Notes under the pieces: model-generated
Told to the model about the DNA's origin: nothing
Database searches by the model: none
What the model saw: only the letters and a program-made list of their open reading frames with translations
Position numbers and translations under genes: made by a program
Source of the DNA: Chloroflexota bacterium
GTDB taxonomy: Bacteria > Chloroflexota > Anaerolineae > Anaerolineales > UBA4823
DNA length: 64,000 nucleotides
Assembly (NCBI GenBank): GCA_029265355.1
Contig: JAJUJL010000003.1
Span: forward strand, 1 to 64,000
Direction of reading: 5' to 3'
Shown here: positions 4,404-33,693 of the stretch, piece after piece
Layout: every line of letters starts with the position of its first letter
Position numbering within the stretch: the stretch's first letter is position 1

Positions 4404-7429
<3,026 letters not shown>

Positions 7430-11428: not shown

Positions 11429-11523
11429 GGTTGTGTAGGGGGCGAGTTTTTCCCCACGGATGGCGAGGTTGAAAAGCCCGACACACGGCTCTCAGCGCTG
11501 AGGCGCCTGGCTGGCGCAAACCC

Positions 11524-11806
11524 GCCCCTACGGTGCGCGGGGATGATGATGGCGGGGGCGGGCGACCCGTATTTCGCCCGCCATGGCACGCATTGGTCTG
11601 CTCGGTTTGCCTGTAGGGTTGAATTCTTGTCTCGCGTGGGTCGCCCCTACGGTGCGCGGGGATGATGATGGCGGGGGCGGGCGACCCGTATTTCGCCCGC
11701 CATGGCACGCATTGGCCTGCACGGTTTGCCTGTAGGGTTGAATTCTTGTCTCGCGTGGGTCGCCCCTACGGTGCGGCGGGATGATGCTGGCGGGGCGGGC
11801 GACCCG
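11524..11806. repeat. 119-bp tandem repeat, about 2.4 copies
   Basis: The landmark ctacggtgcgcggggatgat starts at 11528 and 11647, and a diverged version at 11766, giving a constant 119-bp period. The first two units differ at few positions. The array stops at the TAA of the minus-strand gene at 11807. Together with the palindrome at 11389 it fills the 524-bp gap after 11282; I see no gene there. Confidence 0.9.
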
Positions 11807-12403
11807 TTACGCTTGCATCACCAGCGAATAATCGATCTTGGCGCTGGTCTCCAGGATGCCGACGGATTGGCGTTGGTCGAGCGAGTGCACCAGGGTCTGC
11901 ACCAACGAGTTGACGCCAATGTGCGCCAGCTCGGTCTCGCGCAGGCCAGTCTTGCGAGCGACTTCTTCCAGCGGGCACTGCGCCAGCAGGAAGTGCAGTT
12001 CCGGGCCAACCTGCTGGATAGTGAGCTGGGCTTTCATCGATTCGAGCACACACAGCAGAGCGCAGGCAGCCGGGTTCTCCTGCATGCGCACGGGGGGCGT
12101 CTCTTTGAACAGCCGGACCAACGCCAGGCCCAGGCGCTCGCCGAAATCTTTCATGTTGAATTCGGCTTCTGCCGGGCTGCACCATGAGCGCAGGTACATA
12201 GCGTATTCCAGCAGCATCTGGCAGAGATCTACCGAAGTGGCAGGGCCAAGCCCGTGGATCTCTCCCCAAATGCGAAAGCCAAGCTGTGGGTCCTCCCAGG
12301 CGTAAATATCGCGCTGCTCCATCTCGGAATAGTACATATCTCCGCTGGCAATGGCGTAACTGCACAGGCGAACGGGATGAATTTGGGAAGGATTGGGCGT
12401 CAT
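11807..12403 (-). CDS. Uncharacterised 198-residue protein next to a two-component system
   Basis: I do not recognise the family. The protein is soluble, with no signal peptide or TM segment. It looks like an alpha/beta N-terminal part (RLCSYAIASGDMYYSEMEQR, FRIWGEIHGLG) followed by a mainly helical region with CALLCVLESMKAQLTIQQVG and CPLEEVARKTGLRETELAHIGV. Four Cys lie in the middle and later parts. The start is placed at ATG 12403, 9 nt inside the longest frame, because GGAG lies 8 nt before it. Upstream are four 11-bp-phased TGTTAC boxes and a -10, so it is probably the direct target of the response regulator encoded at 12569-13261. Confidence 0.7.
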   Translation of the reverse strand: MTPNPSQIHPVRLCSYAIASGDMYYSEMEQRDIYAWEDPQLGFRIWGEIHGLGPATSVDLCQMLLEYAMYLRSWCSPAEAEFNMKDFGERLGLALVRLFKETPPVRMQENPAACALLCVLESMKAQLTIQQVGPELHFLLAQCPLEEVARKTGLRETELAHIGVNSLVQTLVHSLDQRQSVGILETSAKIDYSLVMQA

Positions 12404-12506
12404 CACAACCATCTCCTGTCAAAAACCGATCCAGGGATCTACCAGAGGAGATCCCATAGCTGAGGTTCGATGCATGTTGGCGGTGATGAGACGCAGTGTG
12501 GGGTTG

Positions 12507-12567
12507 TCTATACAATATGGGAATGCAGTAACAGACTCAATAACAAGCGCGTAACAGCGCGGTAACA
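12507..12567 (-). promoter_or_regulatory. PhoB-type direct-repeat operator plus -10
   Basis: Reading the minus strand, TGTTAC (12567-12562), TGTTAC (12556-12551), TGTTAT (12545-12540) and TGTTAC (12533-12528) are spaced 11, 11 and 12 bp. This is the helical phasing bound by OmpR/PhoB-family regulators. The last box overlaps the -35 position relative to TATAGA at 12512-12507, the arrangement of an activator-dependent promoter. Transcription would start near 12500 and run into the 198-residue gene. Confidence 0.7.
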
Positions 12568-12568
12568 A

Positions 12569-13261
12569 TTAATTGCCAGGCGCTTGATCGGGCAGGTTGA
12601 GCACATACCCTTCCCCAGGGACGTTTTCCAGGAGCGAGCGATCAGCAGCGATATGGGCCAGCTTGTTGCGCAGGCGATACACCAACTGCTTGAGCATCTC
12701 CTGGGTAGCGCCTCCCTGCCCCCAGACGCGAAAAACCAGGCTTTCCGCTGGCAGGATGCGCCCGGGATTTTGCATCAAGGCCTGCATCAGGCGCGTCTCC
12801 AGGCGTGTCAGGTGCGTGGGGGGATGTCCAGGCGCAACCAGCTTGCGGCGCTCGAGATGCAGGGTGAGCGATCCGACGGTGAGAGCTCCTTTAGTTTCGC
12901 CGATGGTGCGCCGGAGCAGCGAGCGGATGCGGGCGACGAGCTGGCGCGGTGAAAATGGCTTGGTGACGTATTCATCAGCGCCGGCCTCGAGCGCTGCGAC
13001 CACGTCGTCGTCGGATTGGTGCACGGTCAGCATCAGGATCGGTGTGTTAGAAACGCTGCGTATTCGTGTGCACACTTCCAGCCCATCCATGCCGGGTAGA
13101 CTCCAGTCCAGCACCAACAGGTCGGGCGCTTCGCGGGCGAACAGTTCCAGGGCGTCGGAGCCATTGTGCGCCAGGAGCGTCTCGAAGCCGGCGCGGCGCA
13201 AGGTGAACACCAGCACATCTGCCAGGGCCAGGTCATCATCGACGATCAAAATTTTGCTCAT
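12569..13261 (-). CDS. OmpR/PhoB-family response regulator
   Basis: A 230-residue DNA-binding response regulator. The receiver domain has Asp8-10 (VDDD), phospho-acceptor Asp52 (LVLDWSLPGMDG) and KPFSPRQLVARI. The winged helix includes LTRLETRLMQALMQNPGRILPAESLVFRVWG and LVYRLRNKLAHI. It is cognate to the kinase encoded upstream (13403-15649). AAGGAG precedes its ATG. Directly after its stop codon lie four phased boxes that it may bind itself. GCNTPILMLTV-type loops are normal for the family; nothing is missing from the phospho-site. Confidence 0.92.
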   Translation of the reverse strand: MSKILIVDDDLALADVLVFTLRRAGFETLLAHNGSDALELFAREAPDLLVLDWSLPGMDGLEVCTRIRSVSNTPILMLTVHQSDDDVVAALEAGADEYVTKPFSPRQLVARIRSLLRRTIGETKGALTVGSLTLHLERRKLVAPGHPPTHLTRLETRLMQALMQNPGRILPAESLVFRVWGQGGATQEMLKQLVYRLRNKLAHIAADRSLLENVPGEGYVLNLPDQAPGN

Positions 13262-13402: not shown

Positions 13403-15649
13403 TTATTCAGCAACATCCCGCTCAGCAAGCGGCGCCGGGTTGCGAGGCGGAGGCGGCTGCTCAGTGAGCGGCAGGCTGAACCAGACGCGAGCGCCTCCAG
13501 CGGGGCGATTTTCAGCGCCGACCTGCCCGCCGTGCGCCTGGACGATGGCTTTGACGATCGGCAAGCCGAGGCCCATTCCCTGGGTGGAACCTGGGGATTC
13601 GCCTGGCGCGAACAACCGGCTGAACGAGTTGATCGTTTGCCCCGCGGGAAAGCCAGGGCCGCAATCCGAAACCGAAACGAGCAGGCGTGTTTCTTCGATG
13701 CTGAGCGCAATGCCAATGGCTGCGCGCTGCGGACCGTATTTGCTGGCATTGCTGATCAGGTTCACAAAAACCTGGTCGAGGCGGTCGGGATCCGCCCAAA
13801 CAGCGATTGGCTCAGGCGGGGCGTCGATCTCCAGCCATTGGGCGCGGCGCTGAAGCAAAGGGGTCATGATCTGAGCCGCCTGCTGCATGACTTCCTGGAC
13901 AACGACCCGGCGGCAGCGCAATTGGAATGCGCCGGCTTCGATCTTGGCGCTTTCCAGGATGTTGTTGACCAGCGCTTGCAAGTGCAAGGCGCTCAGCCGA
14001 GCAGCGTTTGCCAGGCTGGCAGCTTCGACGTTGTCACTATCTGCCAGCTCATCTGCCAGCAGCTCGGTGGATGCCAGGATGCTGGAGAGCGGGGTGCGGA
14101 ATTCGTGCGCCAGGTTAGCGAGATAACGGGAGCGCGCTCGCTCGATGGCTTCGTCTTCGTTGACGGCGCGCATCACCAGCACCCAGCCGCGGCGCAGTTG
14201 CGATTCTGGGTCGCCTTCCAGCCAGGCGGTGGTCATCGCCAGGGTGGTGGGGCGTTGTTTGGCGTCGAGCAGCTTCAGACGGCAGGGGATGGTGGTGTCT
14301 TCTCTCTTTGCCAGTAAGCTGGCGAGCGTCACCTCGGCACCGGGCGCGGGTGTAAAGATCTCAGCGTAGGGACGGCGAACAGCGCTGGCCAGGCTGTATC
14401 CCAAGAGCTGCTCCGCTTCGGGATTGAGCCAGGTGATGGCGCCGCTCTCGTCCAGGGTGGCGATGCCGGCAGGCACCGCATTGAGCAGCAGTGCAAAGCG
14501 GCGCGTCTCGAGCAGGGCGTGCTCGAACTGGCTGAGCAACTGTTGGCGAGAGTGATCCAGGCGGGTTGCCAGGTGGTCCAGTTCGAGCCAGCCGCTCTGC
14601 ATCGGGATGGGGTGATCGAGATTGCCGTTGCCAATTTGCTCAGCGGCGGCTGAAAGATCGCGCAGTGGCTGAATGATGCGGCGGGTGAGGGCGGCGGAAG
14701 CCAGGGAGCTACCCAGCGCCAGTAAAACGACTGAGCCGGCGTACAGGGTGAGGATGAGCTGCATCTGCTTACGGATGGCGTTGGTGGGAAGCGCCACTTC
14801 GCTCAACGCGACCAGCCGAGCCTGGCGGTCCAGCAAGGGCGCCAGGATGACGAGATAATGCTGATCCTGGTTGGCTGCTTTGGTGCAGCAGGATTGGAGG
14901 GTTTGCTCGACAAGGTGGGCTGCTTCTGGGTTCAATGGCCAATCTGGGGCGCCGGGCAGGCTGGTGGCGCGGCGCACGCCATTGACGATCAGGCTCTGCT
15001 CGAGGCCGGTGCGTTCAGCGAGGGACTGCATGAAATCCGCGTCCAGCGTTTGCAGAGTGAGCACCGTGGCCGGGCAGCGTTGGTGGTTCTCCATGGGGCT
15101 GGCGGCCAGTATGGCGAGCGAGGCAGTCCGAGGCAGGTTGACAAAGTCGGAAAAAGGGAGGCTGCGCCCGGCCAAAAGCGGCTGGACATCCTGGGGGGCG
15201 AGACTGCCCGAGCTGAGTGGGGGAGCGGAGCTGCGCAGCACGATCAGTGACTGGACGGCCAGGTCGCGGCGCAGACCGTCCAGGTAAGAAGCCAGCGCCT
15301 GGTCGTCCGGTTGGTCCAGCAAATCGCACAGCGCCGGGCGCCGAGAAATGAGCGAAATTGACCGGCGCGCGGCATCGCGCTCGGCGCTGTACAATGCCTG
15401 CGTCGCCAGGGAGGCCTGCTCCACTCGGAGCTGCATTTGCTGCTCAAAAGCCTGCCACAGCGCATAGCCTGCGGGCAGGCATCCCAACAGCATGCTGATT
15501 GCCACCAGGCTGGAAACGATACAAACGATGCGCCGGTAAATGCTTACCGGTTTGCGGTTGGGCTGCACGCGGCTGCGAATGTTCCCCCAAAGCTGGTGCG
15601 CCCTGGCGCGCCAGCCCGACTGCTGGGAGGTAACCCGTCGTTTCCCCAC
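13403..15649 (-). CDS. Sensor histidine kinase with PAS domain
   Basis: A 748-residue membrane kinase: basic N terminus (1-40), TM1 about 41-66, a large extracytoplasmic sensor of about 230 residues, TM2 about 298-320, HAMP (about 321-375), PAS (about 383-495), HisKA with His515 in NLAHEFRTPLSS, and HATPase with NLISNASKYGP, DCGPGF and GMGLGLPIV. The start codon is GTG 15649. No ribosome site lies before it, and the TGCTATAAT at 15657-15665 would put transcription start at about the GTG itself, so the mRNA is probably leaderless. A 141-bp gap without a clear site separates it from the regulator gene. Confidence 0.9.
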   Translation of the reverse strand: MGKRRVTSQQSGWRARAHQLWGNIRSRVQPNRKPVSIYRRIVCIVSSLVAISMLLGCLPAGYALWQAFEQQMQLRVEQASLATQALYSAERDAARRSISLISRRPALCDLLDQPDDQALASYLDGLRRDLAVQSLIVLRSSAPPLSSGSLAPQDVQPLLAGRSLPFSDFVNLPRTASLAILAASPMENHQRCPATVLTLQTLDADFMQSLAERTGLEQSLIVNGVRRATSLPGAPDWPLNPEAAHLVEQTLQSCCTKAANQDQHYLVILAPLLDRQARLVALSEVALPTNAIRKQMQLILTLYAGSVVLLALGSSLASAALTRRIIQPLRDLSAAAEQIGNGNLDHPIPMQSGWLELDHLATRLDHSRQQLLSQFEHALLETRRFALLLNAVPAGIATLDESGAITWLNPEAEQLLGYSLASAVRRPYAEIFTPAPGAEVTLASLLAKREDTTIPCRLKLLDAKQRPTTLAMTTAWLEGDPESQLRRGWVLVMRAVNEDEAIERARSRYLANLAHEFRTPLSSILASTELLADELADSDNVEAASLANAARLSALHLQALVNNILESAKIEAGAFQLRCRRVVVQEVMQQAAQIMTPLLQRRAQWLEIDAPPEPIAVWADPDRLDQVFVNLISNASKYGPQRAAIGIALSIEETRLLVSVSDCGPGFPAGQTINSFSRLFAPGESPGSTQGMGLGLPIVKAIVQAHGGQVGAENRPAGGARVWFSLPLTEQPPPPRNPAPLAERDVAE

Positions 15650-32445: not shown

Positions 32446-33693
32446 CTAGTTGTTACGCGAGTACACCCACTGGCCGGCGATCATGGTGCGCCAGGTGGTG
32501 AAATCTGCGTCAAAAATGGCGATATCGGCGTCTTTGCCATTGGCCAGGCTGCCCTTGCGCGCCTGGATACCCAGCACTTGCGCCGGGTTGCGTGAAACGC
32601 AGTTGATGGCTTCGTGGACGGGCATGCCCACCTGGTCGATCAGAACGGGGATCATCTGGTTGAGCAGCGTGGTGCTGCCGGCGAAAGCGGAGCGGTCGAG
32701 CATCATGCCCACGCCATCGGCGACTTCGTAAGTTTTAGCGCCCATCGAGAAGCGCGAGCCCTCCGGCAAACCCGCGCCGTTGGTGGCGTCGGAGACCACG
32801 CACAGCCGCTGGGCGCCGATGCTGCGGTAAGCCAGCTTCATCAGCGTGGGCGGCAAGTGGCGGTTATCGGCGATCATTTCGACGCTCAAGCCATCGTGCA
32901 CCAGGGCGGTCTCTAGCAAGCCGGGTTTGCGCCACGGACCTTCGCGCACGGTGGTGGACATGGCGCTGAAGAGATGGGTGACATGGCGCAGACCGAGGCG
33001 CATGGCGGCAAGCACCTGCTCCTCTTTGGCGGTGGTGTGTCCCGCGGCGGGGATGATGCCGTTTTCCACGAGGCGCTGCACCAGCTCCAACGCGCCGGGC
33101 AGCTCGGGCGCTAAAACGAAGATGCGCAGCACGTCTTTGTAGGCCAGCAGGGGGTGGTAGGAGCCATCCTCGGGCAGGCGCAGCGCGCTGGGGTCGAGCG
33201 CGCCGCACTGCGCTGGGTGGGTGTAGGGGCTCTCCAGGTGGGCGCCGAGCACCTGCGCGCCAGGGCGAGGCGGCGGGGTACCGCCGGGCGGCGGGGTACC
33301 GCCGGGCGGCGGGGTACCGCCGGGCGCAGACATCCAAGCGCGGATGAAGTCCAGGTCTTGCATCAGCTCGATCAGGGGCACCGGCGCCAGGGTGGCGAGC
33401 AGGGCGGTGACGCCGCGCCGGGCATTCTCGACGGTGATGGCAGCGAAGGCTTCCTCATCGGGTTCGTTGAAGGAATGCCCCAGCGCGCCGTGGGTGTGCA
33501 GGTCGATCAGGCCGGGGGTGATCCAACGCCCGCCCACGTCCATGCGCTCAACGGCGGCGGGCAGCTCCTTGAGCGGCAGCAGCGCAGCAATCCGGTCGCC
33601 AGAAACGATCAGCGCCAGGTCGCTGCGCACCCCCTCCGGCAGCACAAGATTGCCATTTACCAGCGCCAGCGTGTTGGGCGGGATGCGGCTCAT
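32446..33693 (-). CDS. nagA: N-acetylglucosamine-6-phosphate deacetylase
   Basis: A 415-residue amidohydrolase removing acetate from GlcNAc-6-phosphate. Visible are DLHTHGALGH (metal motif), GAHLESPYTHP with the metal-ligand Glu, AAGHTTAKEEQ and THLFSAMS (His ligands), and VSDATNGAGLPEG with the catalytic Asp. A run of three PGGTPP hexapeptides (encoded 33269-33322) is inserted just before the GAHLES strand and is not typical of the family. ATG 33693 is preferred because AAGGAGG precedes it by 5 nt. Its start overlaps the sulfatase stop by ATGA. Confidence 0.92.
   Translation of the reverse strand: MSRIPPNTLALVNGNLVLPEGVRSDLALIVSGDRIAALLPLKELPAAVERMDVGGRWITPGLIDLHTHGALGHSFNEPDEEAFAAITVENARRGVTALLATLAPVPLIELMQDLDFIRAWMSAPGGTPPPGGTPPPGGTPPPRPGAQVLGAHLESPYTHPAQCGALDPSALRLPEDGSYHPLLAYKDVLRIFVLAPELPGALELVQRLVENGIIPAAGHTTAKEEQVLAAMRLGLRHVTHLFSAMSTTVREGPWRKPGLLETALVHDGLSVEMIADNRHLPPTLMKLAYRSIGAQRLCVVSDATNGAGLPEGSRFSMGAKTYEVADGVGMMLDRSAFAGSTTLLNQMIPVLIDQVGMPVHEAINCVSRNPAQVLGIQARKGSLANGKDADIAIFDADFTTWRTMIAGQWVYSRNN
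33269..33322 (-). repeat. 18-bp in-frame triplication inside nagA
   Basis: Three perfect copies of an 18-bp unit (ggcggcggggtaccgccg on the plus strand) encode (PGGTPP)3. The unit is nearly self-complementary around GGTACC. A multiple of three keeps the frame, so copy-number change would alter only the loop length. Confidence 0.95.

Follow-up and report, generated by a model that had tools for sequence, protein, structure and literature searches.

A phased array of four hexamers in the window, by which we mean the whole 64,000-nucleotide stretch of Chloroflexota DNA analyzed here, is real and conserved and, as judged from sequence comparison, most probably an activating operator; in this genome it appears to be dedicated to one gene. 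The genes and boxes follow each other on the minus strand in the order sensor kinase, response regulator, four boxes and orphan gene. Very probably, the array serves as operator for the response regulator whose gene immediately precedes it, and belongs to an orphan-gene promoter that depends on an activator. The features of the locus are:

13403..15649, minus strand: sensor histidine kinase (HAMP, PAS, HisKA and HATPase_c domains), presumed partner of the response regulator
12569..13261, minus strand: response regulator of 230 amino acids (Response_reg and Trans_reg_C domains) with helix EMLKQLVYRLRNKL, presumed to bind the array
12562..12567, minus strand: box 1, TGTTAC; TGTTAC or TGTAAC in all six loci that pair regulator and orphan gene
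12551..12556, minus strand: box 2, TGTTAC, at +11; TGTGAC in relative G057 and TGTAAC in relative G003
12540..12545, minus strand: box 3, TGTTAT, at +22; degenerate in relatives
12535..12540, minus strand: putative weak -35-like TTGAGT, lying between boxes 3 and 4 and separated from TATTGT by 17 bp
12528..12533, minus strand: box 4, TGTTAC, at +34; CGTTAC in G057 and TGTGAC in G003
12512..12517, minus strand: probable -10, TATTGT, exactly 10 nt past box 4, where TAnnnT occurs in 16 of 19 class-wide arrays
12507..12512, minus strand: TATAGA, taken for the -10 in an earlier note on this DNA; 15 nt past box 4, an offset that is not conserved
12413..12417, minus strand: AGGAG, Shine-Dalgarno-like in sequence, for the ATG at 12403
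11807..12403, minus strand: predicted target, the orphan gene, with 198 amino acids when counted from ATG 12403; it has a predicted V4R/Bet3-like fold and matches no family of Pfam or NCBIfam

Read along the minus strand, the array is TGTTAC CGCGC TGTTAC GCGCT TGTTAT TGAGTC TGTTAC. Its half-sites are arranged head to tail with start-to-start steps of 11, 11 and 12 bp, as in operators of the PhoB/WalR type, and box 1 begins 1 nt past the stop codon of the response regulator gene. A three-box pattern with up to two mismatches matched once in the window, against a mean of 0.00 over 100 shuffles. The source genome (5.05 Mb, 64 contigs) contained two overlapping exact matches to TGTTAY-N5-TGTTAY, both inside the array, against one for the reversed control, and boxes 1, 2 and 4 combined (19 fixed bases, up to three mismatches) matched this genome at the array only, with no match for the control. 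A looser search with two mismatches gave three extra places and two control matches; these additional sites were discarded as chance.

The coordinates and the shuffle and genome controls thus confirm what the earlier note had described, i.e., four TGTTAC/TGTTAT direct repeats in steps of 11, 11 and 12 bp just past the stop codon of an OmpR/PhoB-family regulator. The note had further expected the array to yield a searchable regulon motif, and had stated that a lack of phased copies before other genes would count against its proposal. The comparison establishes that the array is unique in this genome, found once in 5.05 Mb, so no internal regulon backs the motif. The outcome of the proposed genome scan is accordingly divided: a single site was present here, which partly goes against the note, but copies of the array precede other genes in other genomes of the class.

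Searches for homologs of the orphan gene were positive in 8 of 101 relatives, in 4 of the 396 class genomes and in 7 of 38 genomes of the family; these counts overlap and include the window's genome, and together they comprise 11 distinct homologs. The relatives named here are Anaerolineales and other Chloroflexi MAGs. A locus search with the single orphan sequence found nothing, and a search with the orphan alignment returned six loci, all in genomes already found. Six of the homologs (in the window, G031, G057, G013, G003 and G028) are preceded by the same kinase-regulator pair, the gene order of which is retained in the five relatives.

In all six regulator-orphan pairs, boxes stand at offsets 0, 11 and 34. 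The three-box scores range from 15 to 18 out of 18, and in each of the six intergenic regions (156-282 nt) not one of 5000 dinucleotide shuffles matched the score of that region. Individual boxes deviate in G057 and G003, as listed above, and the third box (offset 22) reads TGTTAT, GGCGAT, GACAAT, TGCTAT, GGTGCT and TGCTAT across the six loci. The array begins 16-66 nt past the regulator stop codon in the five relatives. It was absent before the five orphan homologs that have no response regulator in the fetched stretch (G030, G035, G387, G344 and G308), where the best three-box score within 400 nt upstream was 9-12 of 18; 100 nt of the G344 stretch were masked. The boxes and their conservation are established by this comparison. 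The restriction of the array to loci where regulator and orphan gene adjoin, together with a joint change of box and helix in two sister loci described below, favors the earlier prediction that the regulator acts on the adjacent orphan gene.

When seven relatives were searched for TGTTAC pairs with up to one mismatch, 33 places were obtained, and the reversed control gave a higher count in all seven genomes. We inspected by eye the 30 places for which loci were available. Four of these were the orphan promoters of G031, G013, G028 and G057, and among the other 26 one third box was noticed, before an HdrA-like gene in G003 (L024). The start codon lies too near to this box for a -10. Also among the 26, an intergenic TGTTATTGATTTGTTAC pair is common to L038 (G035) and L045 (G030), both of which hold the orphan gene without an adjoining regulator.

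For the wider class, 396 genomes were searched with the pattern TGTTAC-N5-TGTTAC-N17-TGTTAC, allowing at most one mismatch and including no -10. There were 23 matches in 16 genomes, the window's genome included, and two for the reversed control. Short repeats are easily picked out by eye, and the boxes might on that account be chance or structural repeats without regulatory use; such a reading is already contradicted by the existing data, i.e., by the shuffle and whole-genome controls, the conservation and the 23 versus 2 class-wide matches, and its probability is negligible. Matches in the other genomes amounted to 22 arrays; 21 were fetched, representing 19 loci and 19 distinct arrays, and one at a contig end was omitted.

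The distance from the array to the -10 is fixed. TAnnnT stands exactly 10 nt past the last box in 16 of the 19 distinct class-wide arrays and in five of the six regulator-orphan promoters, the sixth having TATAAA at that place, and any other offset from 0 to 30 was occupied by TAnnnT in at most two of the 19. Because the -10 was absent from the search pattern, this N10 spacing, which the comparison establishes, speaks independently for the arrays being promoters. A PhoB/WalR-type operator likewise covers the -35 region and keeps a constant distance to the -10, and together with the 11/11/12 steps this arrangement supports the PhoB-type geometry that had been suggested for this site.

From the spacing in the class-wide arrays and the relatives, the -10 in the window was set at TATTGT, 12517-12512. 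The proposal of TATAGA as -10 with box 4 at -35 holds only insofar as TATAGA is present (12512-12507). TAnnnT at the corresponding offset of 15 was found in just two of the 19 class-wide arrays and in none of the six regulator-orphan promoters, and the likelier -10 is TATTGT, 5 bp upstream, so that box 4 falls between the -35 and -10 positions. As a -10, TATTGT matches at four of six positions. A sigma-70 scan reported no promoter, which agrees weakly with an activator-dependent promoter, since shuffled sequences themselves average just 0.3 predictions.

Genes behind the class-wide arrays were examined with family scans. In 6 of the 19 fetched loci, pst-like genes (PstS-, PstA- or PstB-like) follow the array, all of them scoring below curated cut-offs. 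SsuE, SsuD, an SsuA-family protein and ATP sulfurylase scored over cut-off, and ABC transporters and solute-binding proteins were also found. An assignment of the targets to sulfur assimilation was dropped, as the scans found pst-like genes too. Because the PstS, PstA and PstB matches are below cut-off and the targets are mixed, we limit the claim to general nutrient uptake.

In six genomes (loci L102, L103, L110, L115, L117 and L118), the first gene behind the array encodes an MshEN-type protein of about 320-340 amino acids; the N-terminal MshEN domain was confirmed in L102 and L117, and the remaining four were judged from sequence likeness. Locus L110 (G328) has arrays at 5674 and 6903 on its reverse strand, before MshEN-like and pstS-like genes of one gene run. 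With six arrays, one of which precedes SsuE/SsuD genes for sulfonate use, genome G418 (L104-L108) is the strongest candidate for a genuine regulon of several genes.

The response regulator is a member of the OmpR/PhoB family, with both domains over cut-off (PF00072, 109.8 bits; PF00486, 58.7 bits), and belongs to none of the named subfamilies tested. Its scores were below the cut-offs of the PhoB equivalog TIGR02154 (169.9 vs 296.2 bits) and of WalR/YycF NF040534 (147.5 vs 340 bits). The best family match, MtrA NF040689, was likewise under cut-off (185.9 vs 300 bits), and no cut-off was exceeded among the best 25 families. The clade of this regulator seems undescribed, and a literature search of titles and abstracts found no earlier description of such an operator in Chloroflexota.

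When 14 OmpR-type regulators of the window's genome were aligned through the helix, MLKQLVYRLR occurred only in the window's regulator. All 15 aligned regulators beside or near arrays, the window's included, have the helix, the other 14 being 48-67% identical to the window's. For 8 of the 21 fetched arrays, the same strand encodes a response regulator no more than about 1.2 kb upstream. The first survey had chosen regulators by a helix-like pattern and was therefore repeated with a receiver pattern only. At 19 loci outside the window's genome this found a response regulator in 11, of which 10 carry MLKQL[VI]YRLR; the exception is L119 (G349), with the helix QVVKVTVSRLR. Adding the window and the five relatives, the helix is present in 16 of 17 array-locus regulators. 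A regulator of the clade was missing from the fetched locus (4-13 kb) of nine of the 21 fetched arrays, namely L101, L104, L105, L107, L108, L109, L112, L113 and L119.

At the level of whole genomes, the MLKQL helix was found in 11 of the 15 class-wide array genomes searched, a comparison that is partly circular because profile A3 holds the regulators of nine of these 15. Among 15 genomes without arrays, three gave no match at E 1e-60 and 12 had best matches without the MLKQL helix, two of which (G111 and G113) were sister regulators over 275 bits. The six array genomes outside profile A3 (G414, G116, G451, G346, G466 and G349) were evenly divided: two have the MLKQL helix, two have a sister regulator of the R type as best match, and two have neither. 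Nothing in G346 matched at E 1e-60, and matches in G349 reached at most 211 bits.

Two sister regulators have the helix ALRQLVRRLR, with tyrosine changed to arginine, and arrays of altered hexamers lie 10-20 nt past their own genes. These read TGTCAC-TGTCAC-TATAGC-TGTCAT-N10-TACGCT at L177 and TATCAC-TATCAC-TATCAC-TGTCAT-N10-TATCAT at L162. Near the genes of three more sister regulators (G113, G116 and G111), no phased array was found. At the helix position that matches the tyrosine of the window's regulator, PhoB presumably has arginine. An association of helix and box is established by these comparisons. We regard it as an evenly balanced proposition that the clade has its own operator code, in which MLKQL[VI]YRLR reads TGTTAC and ALRQLVRRLR reads TGTCAC or TATCAC in a fixed layout 0/11/22/34-N10-(-10), with a role in nutrient uptake (phosphate, sulfur) elsewhere and redeployment to an operon of a V4R-fold sensor and a formate transporter in the window's lineage. 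The natural variants of helix and box provide a direct test set for the specificity of OmpR-family regulators.

The array could alternatively be used by another regulator, an OmpR-type paralog or a global factor, with the neighboring regulator being incidental. At least 13 more OmpR-type regulators are encoded in the genome, WalR-type regulators generally suit TGTTAC-like half-sites, and nine of the 21 class-wide arrays lack a regulator of the clade in the fetched locus. However, none of the 13 aligned paralogs has the MLKQL-YRLR helix, the array accompanies regulator and orphan gene jointly in all six loci, and its sequence shifts with the helix of the neighboring regulator in the two sister loci. 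A global factor would also be expected at more than one site in 5 Mb. We therefore consider use by another regulator very unlikely and retain the adjacent response regulator as the probable binder.

How the promoter may work can be modeled on known systems. The WalR/VicR consensus is TGTWAH-N5-TGTWAH (PMC4168254), and boxes 1-2 and 2-3 match it exactly. The array differs from WalR/VicR (YycF) sites in having more half-sites, a fixed N10 to the -10 and one site found in the genome, and its regulator is under the WalR cut-off. The pho box is described as two 11-nt direct repeat units, the E. coli box holding CTGTCAT (PMC4415409), and PhoB sites overlap the -35 (PMC3348028). The array shares with the E. 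coli PhoB system the head-to-tail 11-nt repeats, the -35 overlap and a -10 shortly downstream, and the pst-like genes behind class-wide arrays add to this likeness. It differs from the pho box in the hexamer (TGTTAC versus CTGTCAT), the four half-sites, the weak third one and the 12-bp last step, and the regulator differs from PhoB in the helix MLKQLVYRLR and in its sub-threshold PhoB score. With a half-site that fits WalR/VicR and a layout that fits PhoB, the array would work like a PhoB/WalR operator.

The phosphorylated regulator would bind head to tail as two dimers, the first on boxes 1-2 with their 11-bp step and the second on the weak box 3 and the strong box 4 with their 12-bp step. 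This would place the downstream subunits over the poor -35 region, at a distance of 10 bp from the -10 TATTGT, and the regulator would recruit sigma-70 polymerase in the manner of PhoB at its pho boxes. Transcription may start near 12505, giving a leader of about 100 nt ahead of the ATG at 12403. Binding of the regulator, its phosphorylation, activation rather than repression and the identity of the signal are what we infer from the comparison. The orphan gene can now be predicted to be the one target of an identified sensor-regulator pair, and the locus offers a promoter model for Chloroflexota that is precise to the base. The genes for regulator, kinase and orphan could also be read as a single transcript. 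Autoregulation of the kinase-regulator pair was rejected, as no TGTWAH or 10-of-12 pair was found in the 700-800 nt around or upstream of the kinase start in any of the six loci.

A regulator bound to the array might instead repress, by blocking polymerase at -35 to -10 or by acting as a roadblock to read-through from the regulator gene. According to PMC4168254, direct-repeat binders occupy sites upstream of the -35 at genes that they regulate positively and sites over the promoter at genes that they regulate negatively, a rule that, applied to this array, would fit repression. In the window the array moreover abuts the regulator stop codon. In the five relatives, however, it starts 16-66 nt beyond that stop, and the fixed 10-nt gap between box and -10 in 16 of 19 class-wide arrays is expected for contact with polymerase, not for occlusion. 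In E. coli, PhoB activates from sites that overlap the -35 (PMC3348028), and in other genomes the arrays precede nutrient-uptake genes. Repression is thus unlikely, and activation is the reading that we prefer.

The longest frame of the orphan gene starts at 12412 and encodes 201 amino acids; the 198-residue gene assumed in the earlier note fits the ATG at 12403, with AGGAG at 12417-12413. Pfam searches of seven members of the orphan family gave no match to V4R, TRAPP or XylR_N, and the window protein had no Pfam match at E values up to 5. The sole Pfam matches among the seven were Smaco_capsid (0.012) and DUF4932 (0.032), in one member each. A predicted model of the orphan protein (pLDDT 84.5) aligned with human TPC6 (Z 12.1, rmsd 3.9, 136 residues aligned) and with the MopR sensor (Z 9.2, rmsd 4.9, 144 aligned), and overall with TRAPP, MopR, DmpR and PoxR chains at Z scores of about 8-12. 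The lowest Foldseek E-values were to designed proteins, with low TM-scores. The fold reading is based on the TRAPP and MopR-type rows, and absence from the structure list was not taken as exclusion.

The orphan product is predicted from its model to have a V4R/Bet3-like fold, a fold that by itself shows no function. This fold serves small-molecule binding. Going by its model, the orphan may share it with V4R/Bet3 (TRAPP) proteins and the phenol-sensor domains of MopR, DmpR and PoxR, from which it differs by additional strands at the N-terminus; neither a DNA-binding nor an AAA domain was found in it.

The neighborhood of the orphan gene in relatives points toward a signal from formate or C1 metabolism. 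FocA follows the orphan in G057, G013 and G003, i.e., in three of the five regulator-orphan loci with a continuing contig. Its score exceeds the TIGR04060 cut-off in G013 and G003, and the G057 protein reaches 268.1 of the required 290.1 bits. The G057 locus also has CODH/ACS-associated genes (a corrinoid protein and RACo). In G030, a distant orphan homolog without a regulator adjoins NuoE/NuoF-like and molybdopterin formate-dehydrogenase-like genes, and the neighbors of the G035 orphan are similar to these in sequence. Because FocA lies next to the orphan in three relatives, our best guess for the signal is formate or C1 metabolism. The FocA-like gene of the window's genome (contig C49; 285.3 of 290.1 bits) lies elsewhere and has no array. 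This genome also has homologs of the formate dehydrogenase alpha subunit, with 2 of 16 matches over cut-off. One such homolog, at G000:C46:272230-274323, contains a single in-frame TGA, possibly a selenocysteine codon.

Several tandem repeats were observed in the window. At 11523-11807, a tandem array of 2.4 copies of a 119-bp unit (96% matches) lies directly downstream of the orphan gene and reaches its stop codon. A 20-bp unit, GGGTCAAACCCGCCCCTACC, occurs in 19 head-to-tail copies with 90% matches at 123-505, and a perfect 18-bp tandem repeat of 3.2 copies is located at 33269-33326.
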